Below, piece after piece: positions 4,081 through 23,432 of a stretch of 23,432 nt of DNA. A program made the translations under genes and the position numbers. Source of the stretch: a virus; the IMG/VR virus record IMGVR_UViG_3300033143_003700, positions 1 through 23,432 of that record, one strand, 5' to 3'. Under the pieces are notes generated by a model. It did no database searches. It was not told the DNA's origin and saw only the letters and a program-made list of their open reading frames with translations. The first letter of the stretch is position 1. Each line of letters opens with the position of its first letter.

Positions 4081-4512
4081 GTGGCTAAAAAAAAAGGGAC
4101 ACTAACAGAAAAACAAAAGACTTTTGTTCGCAATCTACCGACAGCAGGGTCCGCAACAGAAGCGGCCAGGATAGCAGGTTATTCAGAACCGGACGTGTAT
4201 TCATCGAGGTTGGTAAATGACAGTAGATACAAGCACGTACAGGACGCTATCAGAAGGCAAGAGGAACGCCTCGACAAAAAAGTCGGCCTTACCCTTGAGG
4301 ACAAAAAAGAGAAGCTCAGGAAGATTGTCAAAGACGGTCCAGACAGGGAAGCCATGACAGCTATCGATCTTGACAACAAGATGGAGGCCGTCTATCTCCA
4401 GAGAACTCAGTCAGAGGATATTGACCCCAGCGACGAACAGCTCTTACAGAAGTATATTAAGAAATTTAACCGGCTTGGCTACGACGTAATCAAGCGGAAG
4501 GACAGGTCTTGA
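4081..4512 (+). CDS. terS: Terminase small subunit
   Basis: GTG 4081 was chosen, with GGAAG four bases upstream; TTG 4072 is the alternative. The 143-residue product begins VAKKKGTLTEKQKTF. The segment LTEKQKTFVRNLPTAGSATE followed by AARIAGYS (about residues 8-35) is the N-terminal helix-turn-helix signature of Terminase_2-type small subunits, which bind the phage packaging site and form a ring. The later part (LDKKVGLTLEDKKEKLRKIV) is a helical oligomerisation region. Location upstream of the large terminase gene, with one GNAT-like and one unknown gene between, supports the call. Nine A bases at codons 3-5 form a homopolymer at the very start. The TGA overlaps the next TTG start as TTGA. 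Confidence 0.8.
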   Translation: MAKKKGTLTEKQKTFVRNLPTAGSATEAARIAGYSEPDVYSSRLVNDSRYKHVQDAIRRQEERLDKKVGLTLEDKKEKLRKIVKDGPDREAMTAIDLDNKMEAVYLQRTQSEDIDPSDEQLLQKYIKKFNRLGYDVIKRKDRS

Positions 4513-5006
4513 CTGATATCCCCATCAAAATCCGTGGCATTCAGACAGAGGACGACAGAAACTTTATCATAGCCTCTTGGATTCAGACCTTCCGGGGCCA
4601 GTCTCAGATTGACCCATGGATGCCCAGGGAGTCCTACATACCCAAGTTGTCAAACGTGATAAAACTACTTATCCACAAAAAGCCTGAAATATTTAGAATT
4701 GCATGCAACGAGGAAAACGACGACCAGGCGTTTGGCTGGGCCTGTTCGGATAGAAACGCTGTCTATTTTGCTTATGTCAAAAAGGATTTCAGGCGCTATG
4801 GCGTGGCTACGGAATTGATAGGCAGCAAGGAATGGACGCTTGCAAACTGGACAAAAATATGTGAAAAGATGACCAACGTAATATTTGAACCATCCCACTT
4901 CAAGAGGTTAATTCATGAAGCCGATAAGACTAAAGAAAGTAGTATTACAAGGAACCTCCCACCCTCACATCTTGGGCAAAACCAGGAAAACGCTGGGGCC
5001 GGATGA
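4509..5006 (+). CDS. GNAT-like protein of phage packaging region
   Basis: TTG 4509 overlaps the terS stop (TTGA). The 165-residue product starts MTDIPIKIRGIQTEDDRNFI and contains AVYFAYVKKDFRRYGVATEL (about residues 77-97). The 'YVKxxFRRxGxAxxL' element matches GNAT motif A (acetyl-CoA binding, normally R/Q-x-x-G-x-G/A). It also matches a family of GNAT-like proteins found beside phage terminase genes. In that family the domain generally ends shortly after the sequence corresponding to NVIFEPSHF. The last roughly 30 residues overlap the next gene by 92 bases and look like an overprinted extension. The substrate is unknown; enzymatic activity is not certain. Confidence 0.7.
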   Translation: MTDIPIKIRGIQTEDDRNFIIASWIQTFRGQSQIDPWMPRESYIPKLSNVIKLLIHKKPEIFRIACNEENDDQAFGWACSDRNAVYFAYVKKDFRRYGVATELIGSKEWTLANWTKICEKMTNVIFEPSHFKRLIHEADKTKESSITRNLPPSHLGQNQENAGAG

Positions 5007-5463
5007 TATCCGAAAAGAGGGAATGACGCTGTGGTACCTCCCTGAGTGGCAAGTCGTCACAGCCACTATAAAAGACAAGACAGAGCTTATTCCCAGGGAC
5101 AACATAGGCGTTATGGAGCCTTTCGACCGAGAAGAGATGGGAATCCCCAAGGCTTGCTTCAATTGGCAAATGCCTAAGCAGGACCAAGAGCCCGTCCCCT
5201 CAATCAAGCCAGGCTACTTGCCCGGTGGTAGGGTCCAGGTTGAGTCTGGACTCAACACAGAGGGCCTTGACGCTCTCAATCGCTCAGGGCCGAAGGTGTC
5301 GGACGGTAGCGGTGGCTGGGTGCCTCCGGAGCATGCAGTCATGGGAGACCCGGACCTGCCAGTTGTAGAGCTGAACAGGGAGGCCAAGGAAAAAGAGAAG
5401 CCAGTCAGGCTCGATAAAGAGGAAAAGTCAAACAAATCAAAGGACAAGAAAAAGGGGAAGTAA
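4915..5463 (+). CDS. Unrecognised protein between terS and terL, basic tail
   Basis: The 182-residue product starts at ATG 4915 inside the end of the previous gene, preceded by AAGAGG (4902-4907). The core (MTLWYLPEWQVVTATIKDKT and following, from about residue 37) has a strand-like character and resembles a small beta domain. The middle is Pro/Gly-rich (GYLPGGRVQVESGLN). The last 35 residues are almost all Lys, Glu, Asp and Ser (KSNKSKDKKKGK). A later start at ATG 5023 would remove the overlap and keep the strand-rich core. It lies directly next to terL, one base from the end of its stop to TTG 5464. Proteins at this position in podoviruses are often uncharacterised packaging-region proteins; no function is claimed. 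Confidence 0.65.
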   Translation: MKPIRLKKVVLQGTSHPHILGKTRKTLGPDDIRKEGMTLWYLPEWQVVTATIKDKTELIPRDNIGVMEPFDREEMGIPKACFNWQMPKQDQEPVPSIKPGYLPGGRVQVESGLNTEGLDALNRSGPKVSDGSGGWVPPEHAVMGDPDLPVVELNREAKEKEKPVRLDKEEKSNKSKDKKKGK

Positions 5464-8113: not shown

Positions 8114-10066
8114 ATGACATACGAAATCAATAAAAATACTCGTTGGTGGCAGCTTGATAAAGGCTCAAGACATGAGGGTGTATTTGGGGCCGTACGACAC
8201 TTGATAAACACAAGTGCCTGGAGGACAGACAGAAACCTACGGAATATGAGGTTGTATGGGTCGTCTAAAATCCTCGGCTTTAGCGGTGGTGAGTATGTCC
8301 ATGAACACATGGATTTTGAGGAGCGCCTATCCCTGAATGTCATCAAATCAGTTATTGACGCAGCAACAAGCAAGATTTCCTCCAACCGTCCCAGGGCGCA
8401 ATTTCTCACAGAGGGTGGCAAATGGGGATTGCAAGAGCAGGCTAAGAAGTTGACCCAATTTGTTGATGGGCAATTCTGGGCTTGTGACGTGTATAAAAAG
8501 ACTCGTAAAGTCTTTAGGGATGCCTGTATTTTTGGCAACGGGCCTGTACACGTATACACTGATTGGAGTGACCCTGAGAATCCCACACCTACGGTTGAGA
8601 GAGTTTTCCCAGAGGAACTGTGGTTTGACCCGGTTGATGCCAAGTACGGCAGACCGAGGCAAATATACCGCGTCAAGACGATAGGTAGAGAAGTGCTAGC
8701 CGGAGATCCTGAGTATAAGAAAAAGATGACCCAAATCAAGGGGGCTGGGCTGATAAGGGAAGAGGAGTCGGGCTTTGAGAGCCTAGCCGATCCCGTGACA
8801 GTGATTGAGGCTATTCACCTCCCAAGCTCTCCATCTGCAAAGGATGGCTGGCGGGTTCTCTGTGTTGACACCGGGGAGCTATCCGCAGTCGAATACAAGA
8901 GGAAAAAATTCCCATTTCCCATGATGCACTGGACAGAGCCGGTTTTGGGTTCAGAGGGGATAGGGCTGGGTGATGAGCTGCAGGGGATCCAGGTTGAGAT
9001 AAACAAGATCCTTCGTAAGGTCCAACAACACATGCACCTAGCTTCAAGCTTTATCCTTGCCAACCGTGGATCTAAAATCCTCAAGTCCCACTTGACCAAC
9101 ACGCCATGGTCCCTGTTAGAATACACCGGGGACGCCCCCACGTTTGCTACAATCCAGTCAATTAGCCCTGAATACTTTGCTCAGATAGATCGCCTTTACG
9201 CCAATGCCTTTGAAATCGCTGGGATAACTCAACTCTTCTCAACAGGCAAAAAGCCGTCTGGGCTGGATAGTGGCAAGGCTTTACGTGAGTACAAAGACAC
9301 TGAGAGCCAACGCTTTATGGCCACAGGGCAAGCATGGGAAGAGTTTCATTTGGAGATCTCAGAATGCCTGATTGAAGAAGCCAAGGAAATTGACGAGACA
9401 CTGAAAGCAACAGGAAAGACAGACGGCTACACTGTCCTAGCAAAGAATGAAGCAGGTGACGGCCTAGATAGACTGAAATGGGAAGACGTCAACCTTGATC
9501 GGGATAAGTACGTTATGCAACAATATCCAACGTCTGCACTTCCCAAGCTTCCCGCTTTCAGGATGGAGCAAGTCAAGGAAATGCTAGACGTTGAGCCACG
9601 GCTACAAAACAGGGCTCTTGAGTTGCTGGCATTCCCCGATCTGAAAGCAGCGACAAAACAGATAAACGCCCCGATTGACGAAATAGAGCAGGTTACAGAC
9701 AGGATGCTGTATGCCGAAGGGGACATGTACGATCTCTACACTCCCCCGGATAGCTTTACCAAGCTTGGGCCGGCTATGAATATCACAAAGAACAAGTATA
9801 TCAGGGCTAGAATGGACGGTTGTCCAGAAGAACGGCTTGAGCTACTCTTGCGCTACATGTCAGAAGTTGAGGAACTTATGAAGCCTCCAGAACCTCCCCA
9901 AATTGAAGGCCCTATGCCCGGTGAAGGACTACCCACGGGACTGCCTCCCGCTCCTGCGCCCGGCATGGGGCCTGCTTCACCCCCTGGAATGGGTGACGTG
10001 AATATTAGCCCACGGATAAATGTTCAAGGTCCGGAGGCAATGCCTCCTATTCCAGGGCAGAGGTAA
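8114..10066 (+). CDS. Portal protein
   Basis: This 650-residue protein forms the dodecameric DNA entry vertex in tailed phages. Visible features typical of podovirus portals include an early helical segment ending IDAATSKISSNRPRAQF (residues near 90). Then come KLTQFVDGQFWACDVYKKTR and DACIFGNGPVHVYTDW (wing/stem region). PTVERVFPEELWFDPVDAKY follows, then LGDELQGIQVEINKILRKVQ. The C-terminal tail (last about 60 residues) is Pro/Gly/Met-rich (PPEPPQIEGPMPGEGLPTG). The position between terminase and scaffold/capsid genes and the length both fit. The start is ATG 8114, directly after the previous stop, with a weak GGGG upstream. Family assignment rests on recognised conserved segments, not on a search. 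Confidence 0.88.
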   Translation: MTYEINKNTRWWQLDKGSRHEGVFGAVRHLINTSAWRTDRNLRNMRLYGSSKILGFSGGEYVHEHMDFEERLSLNVIKSVIDAATSKISSNRPRAQFLTEGGKWGLQEQAKKLTQFVDGQFWACDVYKKTRKVFRDACIFGNGPVHVYTDWSDPENPTPTVERVFPEELWFDPVDAKYGRPRQIYRVKTIGREVLAGDPEYKKKMTQIKGAGLIREEESGFESLADPVTVIEAIHLPSSPSAKDGWRVLCVDTGELSAVEYKRKKFPFPMMHWTEPVLGSEGIGLGDELQGIQVEINKILRKVQQHMHLASSFILANRGSKILKSHLTNTPWSLLEYTGDAPTFATIQSISPEYFAQIDRLYANAFEIAGITQLFSTGKKPSGLDSGKALREYKDTESQRFMATGQAWEEFHLEISECLIEEAKEIDETLKATGKTDGYTVLAKNEAGDGLDRLKWEDVNLDRDKYVMQQYPTSALPKLPAFRMEQVKEMLDVEPRLQNRALELLAFPDLKAATKQINAPIDEIEQVTDRMLYAEGDMYDLYTPPDSFTKLGPAMNITKNKYIRARMDGCPEERLELLLRYMSEVEELMKPPEPPQIEGPMPGEGLPTGLPPAPAPGMGPASPPGMGDVNISPRINVQGPEAMPPIPGQR

Positions 10067-10068
10067 TA

Positions 10069-10269
10069 ATGGACCAAGGGCCACAAAAGGAAATCAAGAC
10101 AGGGTTCGAGACGCCAGGTTGGCACTACGACATAACCCCAGGAGCCATGCTTACTTGGTGTGGAAATTGGTTTGAATTTGTAGGTGTGGACCCGGACAGA
10201 CCGGATATTGTCTTTTTTAGGCACGTAAATGAAACGAAAAACAACACAAGGACAAAAGGGAAAAAATGA
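10069..10269 (+). CDS. Small protein between portal and scaffold
   Basis: This 66-residue product has GAGG about 6 bases before ATG 10069 and ATGA coupling to the next gene. It contains HYDITPGAMLTWCGNWFEFV and then PDRPDIVFFRHV, which suggests a compact beta-strand unit, and ends in a basic tail. It is in the slot between portal and scaffold. No family was recognised. Confidence 0.55.
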   Translation: MDQGPQKEIKTGFETPGWHYDITPGAMLTWCGNWFEFVGVDPDRPDIVFFRHVNETKNNTRTKGKK

Positions 10270-10697
10270 TAAGCGACGAAGCGATTAAATCCGCAGTGGC
10301 GGCCATCGGACAAGAGTCAAGCTCAGAAGAGCCAACGGAAACGCAACCAGAGGTACATGAACCAAATGATCAGGAAAAAGAAGGTGAACCCAGTCAGGAA
10401 AGTGATACCGAAAAGCCCCAGGAAACAGAGGAAAAGACCGAAAAGATCGATCCGGAGGTAGTAGCAAAGCCAGAAGAACCGGAGCCAGAACCCAAGCTTT
10501 CCCGACGTGACGAATTCATTGAGAAGGCCAGCAAGGAACACAAATTACGAGAGCGCGAAAACGCAATCAAGTCTCAAGAGGGTGAGTTCAACACGCTGAG
10601 GGAAACTCTTGCCAAAATAGAGCAGAACCCGCTTGCGTACGTAGCAGAGAAGGACCCGAACTTTTATCAGCTCAGAACAAACAGATTGAGGACTTGA
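10266..10697 (+). CDS. Scaffold protein, N-terminal part (apparent split gene)
   Basis: The 143-residue product starts MISDEAIKSAVAAIGQ, has an acidic Glu/Pro/Thr-rich region (about residues 18-78) and then RRDEFIEKASKEHKLRERENA, a coiled-coil start. A low-complexity acidic N-terminus with a helical rest, between portal and capsid, is the usual form of a phage scaffolding protein. The frame ends in NRLRT at 10697. However, the -1 frame is open from 10586, and reading it gives QNKQIEDLKKQIQDLTGLVI, a regular coiled coil that continues into the next gene. Together the two make about 305 residues, a normal scaffold length. The join could be a frameshift, a real split or a base-call error. Confidence 0.75.
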   Translation: MISDEAIKSAVAAIGQESSSEEPTETQPEVHEPNDQEKEGEPSQESDTEKPQETEEKTEKIDPEVVAKPEEPEPEPKLSRRDEFIEKASKEHKLRERENAIKSQEGEFNTLRETLAKIEQNPLAYVAEKDPNFYQLRTNRLRT

Positions 10698-11182
10698 AAA
10701 AACAGATTCAGGACTTGACTGGATTGGTCATTCAGTCCCAGGAGAAACAGCAGGGAGACAACGCCTACAACCAATTTATGGGAGAGCTTGGCCGTGTCCT
10801 AAGCACAGGTGACCACGAGCCTATCAAGGCGTATGCCCACGAATTCGAGCTATTGACAGGCAAAAAGTTTGACGTTAGGGCAGAGGCTGCAAGCGTTTGG
10901 GCAGAGTTCAACGAGACCTACAAAAAAAGCTTGTCACCAAAAGAAGTTGCTGAGATACTAAAAGAAGATTGTGAAAGTCATCTTGAGAGAATAAACAAAG
11001 GGAGAGCAAAGCCAGATCCAAAAGAGGAGCCGAAAAAGAATGAAAAGAAGGACGGCGGCAACGGCAAAGCAAAATCTCTCAATAACAATATGGAGGAAAA
11101 TTCTGCCTCCGGGGTTGATGACGATGAAGCATGGGAAGGATTGACCCACGAGGAGAGAATCCGTAAAGCAGCAATGATGTAG
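10694..11182 (+). CDS. Scaffold protein, C-terminal part (apparent split gene)
   Basis: The 162-residue frame begins with TTG 10694, overlapping the previous stop as TTGA. No ribosome-binding site at proper spacing is seen (GAGG is only 3 bases from TTG). It starts KKQIQDLTGLVIQSQEKQQG, a coiled coil already open upstream in the same frame. Residues about 20-95 are helical and end in a Lys/Glu-rich stretch and an acidic tail (GVDDDEAWEGLTHEERIRKA). That pattern resembles the C-terminal coat-binding end of scaffolds. No slippery heptamer of the classical X-XXY-YYZ type was found in the shared window 10586-10694. It could be made by re-initiation, frameshifting, or be part of one gene with an indel. 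Confidence 0.7.
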   Translation: MKKQIQDLTGLVIQSQEKQQGDNAYNQFMGELGRVLSTGDHEPIKAYAHEFELLTGKKFDVRAEAASVWAEFNETYKKSLSPKEVAEILKEDCESHLERINKGRAKPDPKEEPKKNEKKDGGNGKAKSLNNNMEENSASGVDDDEAWEGLTHEERIRKAAMM

Positions 11183-11193
11183 ACTAGAACCAT

Positions 11194-11209
11194 CCCCACC
11201 GAAATGGGG
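11194..11209 (+). promoter_or_regulatory. Hairpin in the leader of the capsid gene
   Basis: CCCCA (11194-11198) and TGGGG (11205-11209) form a 5-bp stem with a six-base loop (CCGAAA). No T-run follows, so it is not a convincing terminator. It may mark an mRNA processing or stabilising structure between scaffold and capsid. Confidence 0.4.
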
Positions 11210-11266
11210 CATATCGAAAAGTATTACTCCGAAGATCCGGGTTAGAGACACAACACAAACCCAAAC

Positions 11267-11279
11267 GCGCCACAGGCGC
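11267..11279 (+). promoter_or_regulatory. GC-rich hairpin next to the capsid ribosome-binding site
   Basis: GCGCC (11267-11271) and GGCGC (11275-11279) form a 5-bp stem with a three-base ACA loop. It lies two bases before the capsid Shine-Dalgarno GGAGGA (11282-11287). It could protect the 5' end of the capsid message or keep the ribosome-binding site single-stranded. Confidence 0.4.
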
Positions 11280-11292
11280 CCGGAGGAATACG

Positions 11293-12540
11293 ATGCCCCC
11301 AGCAACAATTGCAACAATGGATCCTGCACTAAAGCAGATTTATCGCCCGTCATACATCAATGACGTCTGTTTCAAAGACAGACCTTTATTGGCCTGCATG
11401 CCCAAATATACCGAGTTCGGTGGAAGGAACATGCCCATCGTGCTCAAGTACACCCGTCCCCAGGGCCGGAGTGTCAACTTTGGTGTGGCTCAAGCCAATG
11501 CTACCCCATCGAATCTTGAGGATTTCCTCTTGGTCCGTCGCAAGGATTATGGCGTAGCGACGATTGAAGGTGAAACTGTCGACGCCATGGAGAAGGATCG
11601 TTATGCGTTCCTAAAAGGGACGTCCATGGAGATTGATGGAATCCTTGAGACCCTTTCTCGAAATCTTCACATCATGGCTTATCGAGATGGCCATGCAACC
11701 CGTGGAACCGGAGACGGTGCATGGGTTGTGGCTGGTACTGTTTGCACGTTGGCCGATCCGGAAGAAGCCTCGAATTTTGAGGTTGGTATGGTTATCACGA
11801 CAACCGCCGCAGGTTATGCCGGAGCGGTTCGACCCGGATCGATCACTCTCACAGCCATCAACAGAATAGCAGGAACCCTAACCGCAGCAATCAATTGGAA
11901 CGCAGCCGGTGGGATCCCCGCAATCGTCAACACCGATCACTTGCAAGTGCAAGGTGATTATATCGCCATTGGCGACACCCTGGCCCCATCTGGCCTAGCC
12001 GCTTGGGTGCCCCCAGCGGCCCCTGGCGCTGCTCTGTTTTATGGAGTCAATCGGACAGCAGATATTACCCGACTGGGTGGCCTTCGGTATAATGGAGCAG
12101 CCTTGACCCCGGAAGAAGCATTGATCAACGGTCAATCCCTGCAAGCGCAACACGGCGGCAAGGGAACCCACGCATTTATGCATCACACCAAATACCGTGA
12201 CCTGGAAAACAGCCTGGGCGCTCGGGTTCAGTATGAAATGGTTCAATCCGGAACGAAGGGCTCGCAGGGAGATATCGGGTTCCAATCCATCAAAATCCAA
12301 GGCAACAAAGGCCCTATCAACGTGATTGCGGACGAAGCTTGCCCGACGGATTATTGTTGGATCTTGCAAATGGACACCTGGCAGCTCTGCAGCTTAGGCG
12401 GAGCCCCCAAGATTCTCATGCACGACGGGAATCGAATTTTGCGGGTGAATAACCTGGACGAAGTTGAGGTGCGGGCTGGAATGTACCACAATATTGCCTG
12501 CTTAGCTCCAGGTTACAACGTCGTAGTTACGATGCCTTAG
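11293..12540 (+). CDS. Major capsid protein (HK97-type fold, with inserted domain)
   Basis: The 415-residue product starts at ATG 11293 with GGAGGA upstream. It builds the icosahedral shell. Conserved-type segments include KYTRPQGRSVNFGVAQAN, FLLVRRKDYGVATIEGETVD and the segment starting at about residue 152 (LADPEEASNFEVGM). The insertion-like beta region covers about residues 150-240 (GSITLTAINRIAGTLTAAIN ... GDYIAIGDTLAPSGLAAWVP). Then come FYGVNRTADITRLGGLRYNG and a C-terminal strand GYNVVVTMP. The order and position after scaffold agree with podovirus major capsid proteins. The gene uses CGN for 18 of 21 arginines, unlike terL. It is followed by an intrinsic terminator and preceded by two hairpins, which suggests a discrete high-level transcript. 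Confidence 0.85.
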   Translation: MPPATIATMDPALKQIYRPSYINDVCFKDRPLLACMPKYTEFGGRNMPIVLKYTRPQGRSVNFGVAQANATPSNLEDFLLVRRKDYGVATIEGETVDAMEKDRYAFLKGTSMEIDGILETLSRNLHIMAYRDGHATRGTGDGAWVVAGTVCTLADPEEASNFEVGMVITTTAAGYAGAVRPGSITLTAINRIAGTLTAAINWNAAGGIPAIVNTDHLQVQGDYIAIGDTLAPSGLAAWVPPAAPGAALFYGVNRTADITRLGGLRYNGAALTPEEALINGQSLQAQHGGKGTHAFMHHTKYRDLENSLGARVQYEMVQSGTKGSQGDIGFQSIKIQGNKGPINVIADEACPTDYCWILQMDTWQLCSLGGAPKILMHDGNRILRVNNLDEVEVRAGMYHNIACLAPGYNVVVTMP

Positions 12541-20920: not shown

Positions 20921-23432
20921 ATGCCCGTACTTTACGACAGAGAGGGAAAGCCCTCAAGCGTACCAGACGACAAGGTCAATGAGGCTCTAGCCTCTGGTCA
21001 ATTTGGGTTCAAAAAAGACGAACAATTGGTCATGTATAGCCCCAAGGGCAAGGCATTTACTGTGCCGGCCACAAGCGCCAAAGAAGCGTTTGGCATGGGT
21101 TATAGGCTAGAGGGAGACGAGGAAAAGAGAAGCAGAGAGCTGCAAGAGGGGTATGGAACAGCAGGGGATCAAGCTGCGGCCGGTGCCATGGGGGCGGCAA
21201 GGTCTTTATCTTTTGGTCTGTCCGATGTTGCTCTGGACATAGCAGGGGCCGGAAAGTATGCAGAACGAACAAGAGAGGCAAACCCAAACGCGGCATTGAC
21301 TGGAGAAATCGCAGGTATTGCGGGCTCACTACTTATTCCAGGCGGCCAAGCAAAAGCCGTCGGATCAATAGCAAAGCTTGGCGCTCCCGTTCGAGGCATA
21401 GCCAAGATAGGCCGCGGGATTGAGAAAGCCACAATCAAGGCTCTCGGTGGAGACAAGGGCGGGTTGGTTCGTCGGGCTCTTGCTAAAGGGACAGGGATGG
21501 GCCTGGGAGGGGCAGCCGAAGGGGCGGCTTATGGAACCGGGCAATTTATCTCAGAGCAGGCAATTGGAGACCTAGAGCCCACAGTGGAAAACCTTGCCTC
21601 CCATGTTGGCATGGGCGCTTTATTCGGGGCAGCCGGAGGCGGGGCTTTTGGAGTAGGGGGAGAGGTCCTAAAAACGGGGCTAGGGACTGGGAAAGCTTTC
21701 TTGTCCAGAAGCGGGAAGTCTATAAAAAACCTTTATGAGAAGGGCAGGGGAGTCAAGGCAGCCGAGGGGCTAGGTGAGGCTGTGGAACAACTGCAGAACA
21801 TAAGACCGGCCAAGCTTGACGAATATATGGGGGCCTTTATAGGACAGGACCCAAAGGCATTGGCTCACCTAAGACGAAATGCGGACGACTTGGCAATTGC
21901 AGCAAATCAATCAAAGTCTGTCAGACAAAACCTAAATAGAGGAATTTCAGACGGATTGGACGGTGCAGACGACGTGCTAGGCACAGTCACAGACCAAGGA
22001 AAAGGCAAGCTAAAGGCGGCAAACGTCAAGGAAATAATAGCAACCGGAAACACAAGAGAGGCAGTAACCTCAACAAGGGGGGCCATTGAAGAAGTGGCGT
22101 CCAAATTTGAGCAAATGAAGCTTGCCGGGGACGGAGTTTTTGATGCAACCCCCTCAATAAATAAAATGATCAAGTCTTCCAATAAATACATGGACGAACT
22201 AGAAACCGTTATGTTGAGATCCGGGGACGACGTAGCAGCCGAGGGTTATATCATAGCCGATAGACTCAAGAGAGACATCGGGAAATACAGAGAGCGGTTA
22301 GGTAGGATTACCAATCAGACCGATGCAGTTATGGAAGCCCAAGCGGCCTTTGAGGGTCAATATAGAACATTGCAAGATTTGCTCATGAGAGAGGATTATT
22401 TTGGAAAAATGTGGGCGGCCCAAAGACGAATAAATGCAGCATGGACCCGACGGCTTGAACTGCAACCACTAGAGAGAAAATTTAGAAAACATGTTGGGCG
22501 TAAAGACTGGCATAAAATATTCAAGGCAGACAGGCGTCAAGTAGGTAGATTTATTGACGAACTTGGGAAAGTTGAAAATGAAGTTTATGAGGACTTTTTC
22601 AAGAGAAAGCTTTCCTCCGAGAGGGAGCTTGTCAATGCGATAACAGACTCCTACGAATTGACCCCAGAGCTCCAAGGCATGGCCAAAAAGTTTACTAGCT
22701 TGACTGATGGGGTTGAGAAAAACATAGCTAAGGCCAGAAATACGGTAGGCTTGCAAAACCAGCTTTCCGACATCATAACCTCATCCAATCAGGCAGCCGG
22801 CTTACTACCAGCGGCAGCCGGTGGAATGATGGGTTATATGATAGGCGGGGAAGAGGGGGCCATGTTGGGTATGGGCCTGTCTGTCCTGTCTAATCCTGGG
22901 AGGGTCCTACAGCTCAAAGCCGCCCTGAATCGCATGAGGTCCGACGCCAACCTCAAGATTGCCAAGTCAATCAAGGGCTATGTCAAGACGCTAGCCAAGG
23001 GGGCTGATAGGGCCAAGCAAAAAGGCAAGGGCCTGATTGCCCCGGCCTCTCTCAGAACCCTGCAGGATAGCAACTGGGGAGACAAGAAAACCAAGGATAA
23101 AGACAGAGCCCAGGCATACGAGAGACGCCTGAATGAACTTTCTGATTTTGTCTCGAACCCCGAAAAGGCAGCCGAGACCCTAGCAGCCAAAACAGAAGGA
23201 ATCAGAGAAGCGGCCCCACAGATTGCAGACAGACTACAATCCAAGGCAGTTGAGGCAGCTCAGTACCTACACAACATAGCCCCAAAGAAACCCGACACCG
23301 GGGCATTGATTGAGAGAGAATGGAGGCCTACAGATTCAGAGCTGAGAAAGTTTGCAAGCGTGGCAAGCGTGGTTACTGATTTTGGCAATTTCCTGAAAGC
23401 GGTTGAGACGGGAGAATTGACCTTGGAAATGC
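20921..23432 (+). CDS. Large ejection-type protein with glycine-zipper helices (3' partial)
   Basis: ATG 20921 follows the previous stop directly, and the frame stays open to the right edge (837 codons visible). The N-terminus MPVLYDREGKPSSVPDDKVN, then FTVPATSAKEAFGMGYRLEG, resembles a small repeated 'G-x-x-V-x-x-x-x-x-x-x-A-x-x-x-G' module. Gly/Ala-rich hydrophobic stretches occur around residues 85-112, 125-142, 189-209, 228-249 and 627-655 (e.g. LLPAAAGGMMGYMIGGEEGA). They alternate with charged coiled-coil segments (LKRDIGKYRERLGR). Proteins of this shape are expected to cross or insert into the host envelope during DNA ejection. No lysozyme-type catalytic motif was seen in the visible part. 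The C-terminus is not in the window. Confidence 0.6.
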   Translation, partial: MPVLYDREGKPSSVPDDKVNEALASGQFGFKKDEQLVMYSPKGKAFTVPATSAKEAFGMGYRLEGDEEKRSRELQEGYGTAGDQAAAGAMGAARSLSFGLSDVALDIAGAGKYAERTREANPNAALTGEIAGIAGSLLIPGGQAKAVGSIAKLGAPVRGIAKIGRGIEKATIKALGGDKGGLVRRALAKGTGMGLGGAAEGAAYGTGQFISEQAIGDLEPTVENLASHVGMGALFGAAGGGAFGVGGEVLKTGLGTGKAFLSRSGKSIKNLYEKGRGVKAAEGLGEAVEQLQNIRPAKLDEYMGAFIGQDPKALAHLRRNADDLAIAANQSKSVRQNLNRGISDGLDGADDVLGTVTDQGKGKLKAANVKEIIATGNTREAVTSTRGAIEEVASKFEQMKLAGDGVFDATPSINKMIKSSNKYMDELETVMLRSGDDVAAEGYIIADRLKRDIGKYRERLGRITNQTDAVMEAQAAFEGQYRTLQDLLMREDYFGKMWAAQRRINAAWTRRLELQPLERKFRKHVGRKDWHKIFKADRRQVGRFIDELGKVENEVYEDFFKRKLSSERELVNAITDSYELTPELQGMAKKFTSLTDGVEKNIAKARNTVGLQNQLSDIITSSNQAAGLLPAAAGGMMGYMIGGEEGAMLGMGLSVLSNPGRVLQLKAALNRMRSDANLKIAKSIKGYVKTLAKGADRAKQKGKGLIAPASLRTLQDSNWGDKKTKDKDRAQAYERRLNELSDFVSNPEKAAETLAAKTEGIREAAPQIADRLQSKAVEAAQYLHNIAPKKPDTGALIEREWRPTDSELRKFASVASVVTDFGNFLKAVETGELTLEM

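Follow-up and report, generated by a model that had tools for sequence, protein, structure and literature searches.

Closest described systems

The closest described counterpart of the gene considered here is, in its role, the scaffolding protein gp8 of phage P22, a likeness that is judged by gene position. According to a published report (PMC9962691), the C-terminal part of this scaffold suffices for the assembly of P22 particles, which tolerate a large N-terminal truncation of the protein. Despite the shared role, gp8 was absent from the Pfam and PDB-sequence matches and from the fold matches (50 of 95 listed). No split or frameshifted scaffold was noticed in the titles and abstract beginnings covered, although such a case may still be in print.

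The nearest relative found was IMGVR_UViG_3300027057_000022 (L012), whose major capsid protein (MCP) is 56% identical. Its scaffold gene (1861–2910) also lies between the portal and MCP genes, is preceded by small open reading frames (ORFs) and encodes a protein that aligns along both halves of the gene described below, but it is read in one frame of 349 aa and has, in the pairwise comparison, 15 extra residues at the site of the break. A second locus, IMGVR_UViG_3300017697_001394 (L137), carries a scaffold gene that is also split near the same profile position, in the -1 direction and with a stop/start overlap. It differs in showing a one-base gap relative to whole kin, in retaining the linker and in offering an ATG restart, and represents a different lesion.

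Organization of the split gene

The stretch of DNA analysed, hereafter the window, is the 23,432-base virus record IMGVR_UViG_3300033143_003700. A long ORF of 837 codons (20,921–23,432) continues past the last base of the record, so the genome is incomplete. The features of the head-gene region are as follows.

8114–10,066, + strand: portal protein (phrog_156, E 3.3e-8; phrog_332, E 1.3e-8)
10,069–10,269, + strand: small ORF between the portal and scaffold genes
10,266–10,697, + strand: N-terminal part of the putative scaffold, frame 0, 143 aa, from ATG 10,266 to the stop TGA at 10,695–10,697
10,586–11,182, + strand: C-terminal part of the putative scaffold, -1 frame, with its stop ending at 11,182
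11,293–12,540, + strand: MCP (phrog_14242, E 9.1e-10)

The portal protein also matches P22_portal, under Pfam's cut-off, and by eye the small ORF resembles the one at 1701–1892 of L012, upstream of the scaffold gene of that relative. The split gene occupies the position of a scaffold gene, flanked by the portal and MCP genes and preceded by one small ORF, and an ORF of a similar kind lies upstream of the MCP gene in the relatives. The make-up is also that of a scaffold, a helical, coiled-coil protein of ~300 aa, as judged from a model of the C-terminal part and from the lengths of the relatives' proteins. The AlphaFold2 model of 10,694–11,179 consists of helices only (mean pLDDT 81, with values of ~90 or more over residues 1–100), and complete scaffolds of relatives span 243–355 aa, that of L007 (238 aa) being cut. 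The scaffold name is accordingly putative, resting on gene position and on the helical, charged composition, and none of the named scaffold families or solved structures in PHROG, Pfam or the PDB matched the split gene. Neither part from the window matched a PHROG and one of eight relatives gave a weak hit, to a PHROG without assigned function; Pfam returned matches only under its cut-off, the best E-value against PDB sequences was 0.068, and a PDB fold search with the C-terminal part gave no match at E <= 0.001.

A sequence-only reading of this DNA had described a scaffold divided between a frame that ends at 10,697 and a -1 frame open from 10,586, and both frames are as it described them. 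The coiled coil that it reported in the -1 frame does run on past the break, with QNKQIEDLKKQIQDL placed at 10,673–10,717. The openness of the -1 frame over the 37 codons of overlap is unremarkable and expected by chance, the same being found in 685 of 5227 such stretches (13%) from 17 other genes of the window.

Position of the frame break and the missing linker

Three comparisons place the change of frame within a short interval, which overlaps a repeat.

10,665–10,685, + strand: frame-break interval, at which the ~15-residue linker of L012 is absent
10,675–10,716, + strand: two tandem direct copies of a 21-nt repeat (90% alike), lying on the break

In tblastn searches of the window, the L012 scaffold matched frame +3 at 10,275–10,685 (E 1.7e-14) and also frame +2 at 10,607–11,173 (E 3e-17), whilst a profile of the relatives matched frame 0 over its positions 5–119 and the -1 frame over positions 132–290. 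Codon usage, learnt from 17 other genes of the window, prefers frame 0 before ~10,668–10,671 and the -1 frame after it, with an optimum that is flat over neighbouring codons. Homology of the N-terminal part to relatives stops near 10,668–10,685, and the C-terminal part is homologous and codon-like from ~10,668 onward. Because the two-frame matches of L012, the profile and the codon usage agree, the split is genuinely present in the sequence supplied, and on these comparisons the two frames are read as the two halves of one protein. Each copy of the 21-nt repeat forms one coiled-coil heptad in the -1 frame, and the repeat is a place where slippage or misassembly could plausibly occur.

The joined protein had been put at about 305 residues, a normal length for a scaffold. 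The total holds (305 positions including one X at the junction), but the linker is the shortest among those compared. The anchors NPLAYV and YNQFMGEL enclose 47 residues in the joined protein of the window, the junction X included, against 50–80 in the 130 distinct relatives, all of which exceed this value; the commonest value is 65 (56 of 130), which is also that of L012. Two further protein comparisons took distinct proteins only (75 in one of them). The pairwise alignment with L012 shows a 15-residue gap at the break and three more residues absent further on. A single out-of-frame deletion, of 3n+1 bases, would account for the change of frame as well as the missing linker. A short inherited linker combined with a small indel is also possible, since one relative (L058) has a linker of 50 in a whole gene. 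A single-base deletion was set aside as a full account, as it does not by itself explain the missing linker.

Conservation of the scaffold frame among relatives

Related loci were collected by MCP and portal searches, and 168 were examined besides the window itself (L001) and L011, a near-identical contig considered below. They derive from 9 loci, the best 80 of 294 (one already in the set) and the best 80 of at least 579, so the set and the break rates given below describe a sample of the relatives. A scaffold gene was counted as whole when one ORF covered profile positions 90–230 of 295, a test that could overlook a gene broken outside these positions if its second piece matched weakly. One reading frame crosses the break site in 158 of the 168 loci among the matches listed, corresponding to 130 distinct proteins over the last 250 residues, and these whole relatives each encode, without interruption, a single scaffold protein of roughly 240–355 aa. 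Eight loci were uninformative, four having no scaffold match (L116, L134, L163 and L168, whose contigs end 0–285 bases behind the portal match) and four being cut by contig ends (L033, L149, L153 and L154); L007 is open at its 5' end. The match falls on two ORFs in the remaining two, L137 and L023. The L137 gene is broken at profile positions 130/133 with a TAATG overlap and an ATG-initiated C-terminal part of 162 aa. Its nearest kin, L124 (84% DNA identity) and L145 (82%), have whole genes from which it differs by a one-base gap, so the L137 split is private too. The other, an IMG/VR contig, has a scaffold (L023, 1937–2084) with an in-frame TAG near the C-terminus.

Breaks were counted in the same loci for two other head genes. 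The scaffold rate, 2 of 160, is similar to that of the MCP, broken in 1 of 141 genes complete on their contigs (L144), and of the portal, broken in 1 of 145 (L073). Some contigs were fetched twice and these rates include the duplicates; 18 MCP and 19 portal genes cut by contig ends were set aside, as was L068, whose portal ORF begins at the fourth base of its contig, and there was no match in 9 loci for the MCP and 3 for the portal. Two further loci, L039 and L050, have an MCP that is seemingly interrupted near its start, yet the count did not flag them. Since a phage is hardly viable without its MCP, head-gene breaks at such a rate seem to reflect noise in the collection and not function. Both breaks lie in IMG/VR contigs, as a frame-broken MCP at 4276–5504 of L144 and as a portal spread over three ORFs at 86–1912 of L073.

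The interruptions in L039 and L050 are of another appearance. In L050 (2166–3013) the first codons of the MCP (MLDMSTFQAALKQHYTSDRV...) lie upstream of an ORF that by eye is HNH-endonuclease-like, with the remainder (ENMVYADNPL...) downstream of it, an arrangement that appears by eye to resemble an intron carrying a homing endonuclease. In L039 (2052–2950) scaffold and MCP are separated by an ORF that by eye is GIY-YIG-endonuclease-like, and a ~200-base insertion seemingly parts the beginning of the MCP gene from its remainder. The scaffolds of both are single ORFs; the loci were left out of a table of distances, where the ORF picked was the endonuclease-like one. An intron or other RNA element was considered and rejected, since none of the window, L012, L039 and L050 matched Rfam at the gathering threshold.

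Favoured origin of the split

The split is probably an assembly or sequencing error, a minority variant or a private lesion in an ordinary scaffold gene, and not programmed recoding. On this view an uncultivated tailed phage has an ordinary gene for its capsid scaffolding protein, flanked by those for portal and MCP, and a frame-breaking lesion private to this single record would have fallen in the linker that precedes the coiled coil. An out-of-frame loss of 3n+1 bases beside the 21-nt tandem repeat would be the most probable single event; it would have removed ~15 linker codons, and would have arisen through an error of assembly or sequencing or because the assembly picked up a minority variant. 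We infer a lesion without function, arising in one event and through error rather than biology. A private deletion or assembly error is favoured because nearly all relatives examined carry the gene whole. The sequence-only reading had offered an uncommon frameshift, re-initiation or a one-base deletion, and had proposed a comparison with relatives. That comparison, with 158 loci in one frame against 2 broken, favours the side of lesion or error, although a deletion of one base alone leaves the linker loss unexplained. Several observations count against error: a loss of ~46 bases is larger than the usual base-calling error, the C-terminal part is open throughout with good codon usage, the L137 gene is broken close to this profile position, and the part of the record shared with L011 is not rich in indels. 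If the split is a lesion or an error it matters for annotation only, as one environmental contig with a broken head gene is no ground for annotating recoding.

Translational signals and rival explanations

Two short elements at the end of frame 0 bear on whether the second half could be translated in its own right or joined to the first.

10,694–10,697, + strand: TTGA, a possible TTG start overlapping the TGA stop
10,697–10,703, + strand: A AAA AAC heptamer, in phase, its first base being the final base of the frame-0 stop

A real, working split scaffold, in which the deletion has become fixed, the N-terminal part ends at TGA 10,695–10,697 and the C-terminal part is made separately, is rather unlikely. 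The latter would start by stop-start re-initiation at TTG 10,694, giving 162 aa, or at another start such as TTG 10,724, and its coiled coil, helical core and C-terminal helix would suffice for capsid assembly. This reading draws on the confident helices predicted for the C-terminal part, on the tolerance of P22 particles for truncated scaffolds in the report cited above, on L137, with its overlapping stop and start and a C-terminal part that is also 162 aa long, and on good upstream pairing with the anti-Shine-Dalgarno sequence at the non-standard start ATT 10,706 (-5.9 kcal/mol), with -4.0 kcal/mol at TTG 10,724. A stop-start overlap is indeed present. However, A, G or T before TGA always yields a -1-frame start, that is three of the four bases, so the overlap is expected by chance and says little. 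That TTG 10,694 lacks a good ribosome-binding site was correctly noted from the sequence, and this weakens the re-initiation option: the nearest Shine-Dalgarno-like motif, GAGGA, is only one base upstream, too close, and the pairing is -1.5 kcal/mol, as against -4.9 to -12.9 kcal/mol at 17 starts of the window, which were hand-chosen with 861, 4072 and 14,413 omitted, no motif being found there. The weak site is not fatal, since 5 of the 20 window starts checked have no recognisable motif. The wholeness of L124 and L145 argues against L137 as a precedent. It is, likewise, unlikely that some phages of this group build their capsids with a two-polypeptide scaffold, divided in the linker that precedes the coiled coil and coupled through an overlapping stop and start, and do so independently in the window and in L137. 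If real, such an arrangement would mean that a phage can run on a two-piece scaffold, a natural version of the truncated scaffolds in P22 particles.

An inactivating mutation that is real and has gone to fixation in a defective phage or a prophage copy would account for a linker loss exceeding typical base-calling error, but the other long ORFs of the window are by eye unbroken and this explanation is very unlikely. It is highly improbable that the frames are joined by programmed -1 frameshifting, or by readthrough of the stop followed by slippage at A AAA AAC, despite the -1 direction and the in-phase heptamer immediately behind the stop. The sequence-only reading had found no classical slippery heptamer. 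A search for X XXY YYZ heptamers between 10,561 and 10,720 found two, of which GGGAAAC at 10,600 is out of phase. The in-phase A AAA AAC qualifies that statement, but it lies behind the frame-0 stop and is unusable from frame 0, because the ribosome reaches the stop first; no in-phase heptamer usable from frame 0 was found within the overlap. Three RNA stretches folded no better than shuffles (z -0.69, 0.34 and 1.39); for the uncommon-frameshift option, neither an X XXY YYZ heptamer within reach nor an unusual fold of these stretches was found. The -1 arrangement is not conserved among the relatives: the 158 whole loci require no shift and only L137 is split at this site.

Independent coverage of the break

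Searches for close relatives across the break, with the C-terminal or N-terminal part as query, confirmed none, a tail protein as query gave no match, and the portal returned only L011. A phage collection gave no DNA match to 9000–12,500 and no match to the MCP, and genome contigs yielded no confirmed relative; these searches may omit records very near the window. The L011 contig is 99.2% identical over 4,809 columns and ends at 8920, before the scaffold gene. Its gaps relative to the window all fall together, the net change in length being 6 bases, and over this overlap the record shows no obvious excess of indels. The place where they cluster, 5334–5388 of the window, contains small indels among other differences and looks like local strain exchange. 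Elsewhere in the window, the ORFs at 4509–5006 and 4915–5463 overlap by 92 bases (4915–5006) in different frames.
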